In this document: positions 20,226 to 20,667 of the stretch, piece by piece
Layout: the number at the start of each line of letters is the position of its first letter
Numbering within the stretch: position 1 is the first letter of the stretch
Source: an uncultured Bacteroidales bacterium
GTDB taxonomy: Bacteria; Bacteroidota; Bacteroidia; Bacteroidales; UBA11471
Assembly (NCBI GenBank): GCA_947589325.1
Contig: CANQAM010000005.1
Coordinates: forward strand, 43,546-107,545
Length of the DNA: 64,000 nt
Reading direction: 5' to 3'
Program-made: the position numbers and the translations under genes
Notes under the pieces: generated by a model
What the model saw: only the letters and a program-made list of their open reading frames with translations
Database searches by the model: none
Told to the model about the DNA's origin: nothing

Positions 20226-20667
20226 TATATTTATATTTAATTTTATTTCAAAGAAAAATTTTGTTGATATTACTTTGTTGATAACAAGTATAATTTATCT
20301 TTTCTTTATTTGTTTTTCTTGTTATGAAAATATGATATGCTTTTATATGAAAGTTATTATTGTCTTTTTTATTTTATATGAATGATTTACGCACTTATTC
20401 AACACATGTTCATAATTCACAAAGTTATGTATTTTCTTTGTATTTGCTGTGAATAGAAGACTTAATTTGATGTAATAAGTAAGAAATAAGAAAATATATT
20501 TTTCTGCTGTAAGAATGAAAAACCTTTATATATGGAGATGATTTTTTATTGTGCAAATATATTTTTCATTTTTGTATTCATATTTATGTACAGGTTATCA
20601 ACAGAATTGTACACATATATTTTGTCATGTTTTTTTATTGTGTTATTTTTGCAATAAACATTTGTAT
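20226..20667. other. candidate chromosomal replication origin (oriC)
   Basis: ~442 bp intergenic; hand count of 20221-20640 gives 85/420 G+C (~20%). Two exact TTATCAACA sites in opposite orientation (20277-20285 minus, 20595-20603 plus). Strand skew switches from C>G to G>C across it. Confidence 0.55.
20644..20651 (+). promoter_or_regulatory. -7 box TATTTTTG of the TrmH-family methyltransferase
   Basis: TAnnTTTG match with TTTTG 19 nt upstream. Confidence 0.55.

Follow-up and report, generated by a model that had tools for sequence, protein, structure and literature searches.

Chromosomal origins of the Bacillus subtilis and Escherichia coli types adjoin dnaA or gidA/mnmG, and many of the oriCs that have been studied carry more than two exact DnaA boxes. 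To our knowledge no origin in Bacteroidales has been mapped by experiment, and a search of openly accessible papers found no experimentally studied oriC or trio from Bacteroides or Bacteroidota. The element called BUS, which combines DnaA boxes with DnaA-trios, has been described in B. subtilis and others (PMC8287927, PMC10721633); Bacteroidetes go unmentioned in the main texts of these papers and of those on Ori-Finder, but the supplements or DoriC may record the module described below. On chromosome 1 of Prevotella intermedia OMA14 the oriC was predicted at 1,498,452-1,498,927, where the skew switches and dnaA is far away; detachment of the origin from dnaA was reported to be common in Bacteroidetes (PMC4755523).

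The window analyzed here is a stretch of 64,000 nucleotides, positions 43546-107545 of contig C5, from a 2.35-Mb draft genome in 61 contigs; the close relatives identified are MAGs designated "uncultured Bacteroidales". The gap between the divergent genes nadA and trmH was identified computationally as the oriC, the site where this gut-type Bacteroidales bacterium starts copying its chromosome, with a probability that we place at about 0.92. An oriC at this position had been proposed in an earlier note, and the proposal has gained support: the skew switch is conserved, DnaA boxes were recovered from 32 gaps, and a conserved module (model R1, below) coincides with skew minima in held-out genomes, including some in which the neighboring genes are unrelated. 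The site belongs to a known type, since dnaA-detached origins have already been reported for Bacteroidetes (PMC4755523). The P. intermedia origin comes from the same order, measures about 476 bp, lies at a skew transition, contains several DnaA boxes and is also far from dnaA; its prediction relied on the boxes of E. coli, in contrast to the present locus, with TTATCAACA as main box and modules found de novo. Origins linked to dnaA or gidA/mnmG likewise consist of AT-rich intergenic DNA with DnaA boxes at a skew minimum, but the neighbors here are nadA and trmH, and in other Bacteroidales also rpiB. What is new is an order-wide module whose triplets depart from the published DnaA-trio consensus. 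The features of the locus are as follows.

20226-20667, no strand: candidate oriC, the AT-rich intergenic gap between divergent nadA and trmH (G+C, skew, synteny)
19248-20225, minus strand: nadA, quinolinate synthase (Pfam PF02445, E=2.8e-122)
20668-21201, plus strand: trmH, TrmH/SpoU-family RNA methyltransferase (Pfam PF00588, E=2.7e-35)
20102-20110, no strand: cumulative skew minima, keto at 20102 and GC at 20110 (window computation)
20250-20297, minus strand: module 1, in which a DnaA box precedes a degenerate AT/triplet tract that reads towards nadA (R1 model; alignment with intact copies in relatives)
20276-20284, minus strand: DnaA-box-like TTATCAACA within module 1 (exact match; column conserved in an alignment of relatives)
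20262-20270, minus strand: near-box ATATCAACA, 14 bp from the 20276-20284 box and in the same orientation (sequence match)
20583-20608, plus strand: module 2, on the trmH side, holding TTATCAACA at 20595-20603 (+) (second Gibbs motif TTTATTCACAATTTATCAACAGCTTT)
20420-20427, minus strand: TAACTTTG, probable Bacteroidota -7 promoter element (TAnnTTTG) of nadA (enrichment; invariant in alignment)
20644-20651, plus strand: TATTTTTG, probable -7 element of trmH (fit to TAnnTTTG by eye; similar sites before trmH in relatives)

The G+C content of the 442-bp gap is 19.9%, lower than in any other stretch of that length in the window, and agrees with the earlier hand count of about 20%; AT-rich DNA of this kind is what an unwinding element calls for. 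Two exact TTATCAACA sites had also been claimed. Both are real, and the one at 20595-20603 (+) was correctly placed, but the first lies at 20276-20284 (-) rather than 20277-20285. The weaker matches reported at 20449-20457 and 20607-20615 are present, each with two mismatches to TTATCCACA. In dinucleotide shuffles of the gap, TTATCMACA occurred at a mean of 0.037 exact sites, and two or more were seen in 0.07% of shuffles (P ~0.0007). The two exact sites and the near-boxes make up a DnaA-box cluster, and the boxes were recovered de novo in the 32 homologous gaps; that only two exact boxes lie in the gap counts against an origin. Across the genome the TTATCMACA 9-mer showed no enrichment (56 sites, against 51 of the reversed control), and for this reason its genome-wide count was not used as evidence. 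The box pair is locally unusual, not globally unique: two more TTATCMACA pairs spaced at most 500 bp apart occur on contig C3, and these were rejected as rival origins for want of both AT-richness and a skew switch. One further exact TTATCAACA is located between ORFs at 21869-21877 (-), 1.2 kb downstream of the gap. Judging from sequence, divergent promoters for nadA and trmH are probably accommodated in the gap as well, TAACTTTG probably serving nadA and TATTTTTG probably being the -7 element of trmH; (G)CAAAGTTA was found in 19 of the 32 gaps, against 0.2 in shuffles.

The earlier note had placed dnaA outside the window and the site away from it, and dnaA was indeed found on contig C23, where it encodes a full-length protein. 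The candidate origin is not adjacent to dnaA, and such detachment is not exceptional in Bacteroidetes. Within the 20 kb read around dnaA on C23 there was neither a TTATCMACA site nor a skew switch, and the dnaA neighborhood was rejected as a rival origin on both grounds.

A change in strand composition at the gap, also noted earlier, was borne out by computation. The cumulative GC and keto minima lie just inside the 5' end of nadA, at the edge of the gap, and in the window plus 40 kb sampled leftward on C5 every 5-kb bin to the left of the switch is negative and every bin to the right positive. This minimum is that of the window and the sampled part of C5 in a 61-contig draft rather than of a whole chromosome, which counts against the origin. 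Genes on both sides run mostly towards the putative origin, head-on to the forks (on C5: left, 49.3 kb on the plus strand and 7.7 kb on the minus strand; right, 25.0 kb minus and 15.6 kb plus). Mostly head-on genes are unusual near an origin, and this was also counted against oriC; with genes so arranged, a purely transcriptional cause of the skew was a real worry. In a regression over the 68 ORFs on C5, the side of the switch had an effect of 0.097 (t=11.4) at all positions, versus -0.001 for gene strand (t=-0.1), and whole-ORF regression in three relatives gave t=13.5 for side and 0.6 for strand. At third codon positions side (t=11.6) and strand (t=-9.2) acted additively. The earlier statement that the skew is independent of coding direction holds for all positions taken together; gene strand matters in addition at third codon positions. 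A purely transcriptional skew is unlikely, because the regression shows an effect of side and none of strand over whole ORFs.

Related genomes had been suggested as a check on synteny, and both the nadA-trmH arrangement and the switch were found to recur, in congeners and in eight genomes from other families. Within the genus, the GC minimum precedes trmH by 314-809 bp (G001, G002, G004, G005 and G006; the G001 contig stops 535 bp past the trmH start, so that its right side is hardly visible). Fourteen genomes from other families share the nadA-trmH arrangement. The minimum is at most 1 kb from trmH in eight of them (G136, G058, G057, G026, G097, G035, G093 and G116); a clear local GC minimum was missing in the other six (G072, G028, G012, G135, G148 and G033), which counts against oriC. 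Parabacteroides bouchesdurhonensis, a single contig of 3.73 Mb, was the relative that allowed a whole-chromosome test, by means of 20 sampled 15-kb stretches. Of the eight samples up to 1.275 Mb all had negative skew except the one at 1.1 Mb, which was slightly positive; skew was then positive between 1.34 and 3.2 Mb and had returned to negative by 3.5 Mb. The sampled switch brackets nadA/trmH at 1.306 Mb, as expected of an oriC skew minimum, and the reverse switch lies about half a chromosome away, the point opposite nadA/trmH being at about 3.17 Mb.

Motif discovery was carried out without bias on 32 nadA-trmH gaps from different genomes, using k-mer counts and a Gibbs sampler that forces one site per gap. 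The k-mer counts yielded TATCAACAG, TTATCAACA (16 of the 32 gaps versus 0.5 expected), TTATCCACA (8 of 32 versus 0.15 expected) and TAACTTTGC, the last of which is probably a promoter element. The Gibbs sampler returned module 1 on the nadA side, with a log-likelihood of 596 versus 274-298 in shuffles and a consensus on the nadA strand of approximately TTATnAACnnTWTCAACAGnnTATTATCATCATCAT. A weaker solution, module 2, lies mostly on the trmH side (TTTATTCACAATTTATCAACAG). The two TTATCAACA boxes of the earlier note fall inside modules 1 and 2, and in the window copy of module 1 the triplet part is degenerate.

A sequence-only model of module 1, R1, was built from 28 gaps with the genus of the window excluded. 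Its best match was the nadA-trmH gap in G001 (1.3e-6) and in G002 (1.7e-5), and within the window it was 20250-20297, which scored 10.4 bits (E=0.045 for the window). This copy of module 1 is too weak to be recovered in the whole-genome R1 scan, and this was counted against oriC. The scan of the order covered 149 genomes, and nadA positions were compared for 45 held-out genomes. In 31 of these, from 24 families, the match precedes nadA by 28-233 bp and shares its strand; some weak partial matches were omitted from the tally, and 31/45 is not a rate over all matches. To tell a nadA leader from an origin, the flanks of strong matches away from nadA were read; these matches adjoin rpiB (named from translated ORFs) in G117, G027, G042 and G133, trmH in G106 and a response-regulator-like gene in G068, with distances from GC-skew minimum to module of -86, -66, 329, 905, 527 and 134 bp, respectively. 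In G114 nadA is 0.19 Mb and trmH 0.68 Mb from the module, which is surrounded by six exact TTATCAACA boxes and lies 84 bp from the local keto minimum and 1.8 kb from the GC minimum, in a chromosome region where the sampled skew flips sign. Neither gene was retained as a fixed landmark: in G114 the module is at the switch while trmH is 0.68 Mb from it, and in G114 and the rpiB genomes the module is at the switch away from nadA. Where held-out modules adjoin nadA, they lie at most 400 bp from the GC minimum in G061, G046, G121, G045 and G154; no skew switch was found in nadA-adjacent G118, which counts against oriC. In all, 13 held-out loci were sampled, and in 11 of them the module was at most 1 kb from a local GC-skew minimum (G070, whose contig ends at the module, is outside the 13). 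For this reason module 1 is taken to mark origins rather than nadA. In the single-contig genome G155 the match is beside nadA at 0.108 Mb, a position that also fits the sampled switch between 0.05 and 0.11 Mb.

Three other explanations were weighed against this evidence. Module 1 could be a regulatory leader of nadA, an NAD-synthesis operator or RNA element conserved for that reason, in which case the region would be a divergent promoter and no origin. Its constant placement upstream of nadA and on the nadA strand in the 31 held-out genomes fits this account, as does the probable nadA promoter element upstream of module 1. Yet the module contains DnaA boxes, and it occurs at skew minima beside rpiB, trmH or other genes (G068, G114) with nadA elsewhere; moreover, no Rfam family matches the nadA/trmH region, the only Rfam matches in the window being two tRNAs. 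We regard a nadA leader as very unlikely.

It is harder still to credit that the switch reflects gene orientation or a recent inversion, with the boxes arising by chance in AT-rich DNA. ORFs do run mostly plus on the left and mostly minus on the right, third-position skew does vary with gene strand, and the 9-mer is not enriched genome-wide. Against this, ORFs on the minority strand have the skew sign of the side on which they lie (-0.123 left, +0.082 right), the absence of a whole-ORF strand effect already contradicts the gene-orientation version, and switch, gap and modules recur across families. DnaA boxes occur also at datA- and DARS-like loci, and the locus might bind DnaA for titration or reactivation near the true origin without initiating; the further TTATCAACA at 21869 would suit such a site. 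Titration or reactivation sites need not sit at skew minima, however, whereas here the minimum is at the edge of the gap and the module is within about 1 kb of the minimum in 11 of the 13 held-out loci, which makes a non-initiating locus extremely improbable.

For the origin reading, the sequence suggests how opening might proceed. DnaA encoded on C23 would most likely bind the TTATCAACA-type boxes in module 1 on the nadA side and module 2 on the trmH side, and from module 1 it may spread onto the adjoining AT-rich triplet tract. The duplex would melt at this tract, helicases would be loaded, and two forks would depart in opposite directions. The analysis shows the AT-richness, the boxes, the skew switch, the conserved modules and the agreement of the module with skew minima in other genomes, whereas DnaA binding, the melting site and origin activity at the gap are inferred.

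The layout of one or more DnaA boxes, a short spacer and an AT-rich triplet run resembles the BUS (PMC8287927, PMC10721633). Under the relaxed 3'-NAN-5' rule (PMC8287927), 84% of triplets conform in one frame across the 32 gaps, and as a family these gaps have at least three such triplets at most 16 bp from a DnaA box, the window copy being degenerate. Unlike the BUS, the module has mainly 3'-TAG-5', 3'-TAA-5' and 3'-TAT-5' triplets; in the best NAN frame 3'-TAG-5' is commonest and the published consensus 3'-GAT-5' is absent (0%). TGATGATGA was rejected as a true DnaA-trio, its polarity being opposite to the consensus. The triplet run may be a variant code, or it may be no more than AT-rich DNA. 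It is possible, if somewhat doubtful, that Bacteroidales have an origin-opening code of their own, a tandem DnaA box of the TWTCAACA type with 3'-TAG-5' triplets after it (5'-TATTATCATCATCAT-3' when read along the strand of the box), the letters of the Bacillus DnaA-trio in opposite polarity, conserved across dozens of families and kept when the neighbors (nadA, trmH, rpiB) change.

A module that marks origins even in draft genomes, with nadA, trmH and rpiB as landmarks, would anchor growth-rate estimates from metagenomes and would permit minichromosome tests, and it would open the generality of the DnaA-trio rule to direct tests in a major gut lineage. The occurrence of module and skew minimum next to rpiB, and not nadA/trmH, in several other Bacteroidales suggests rpiB as a second conserved origin neighborhood. 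In the window, trmH is adjoined by a DUF4294 gene (PF14127) of unknown function at 21204-21800 (-), and two tRNA-Asn(GTT) genes in opposite orientation, at 425-499 (-) and 35439-35513 (+), flank the putative origin.
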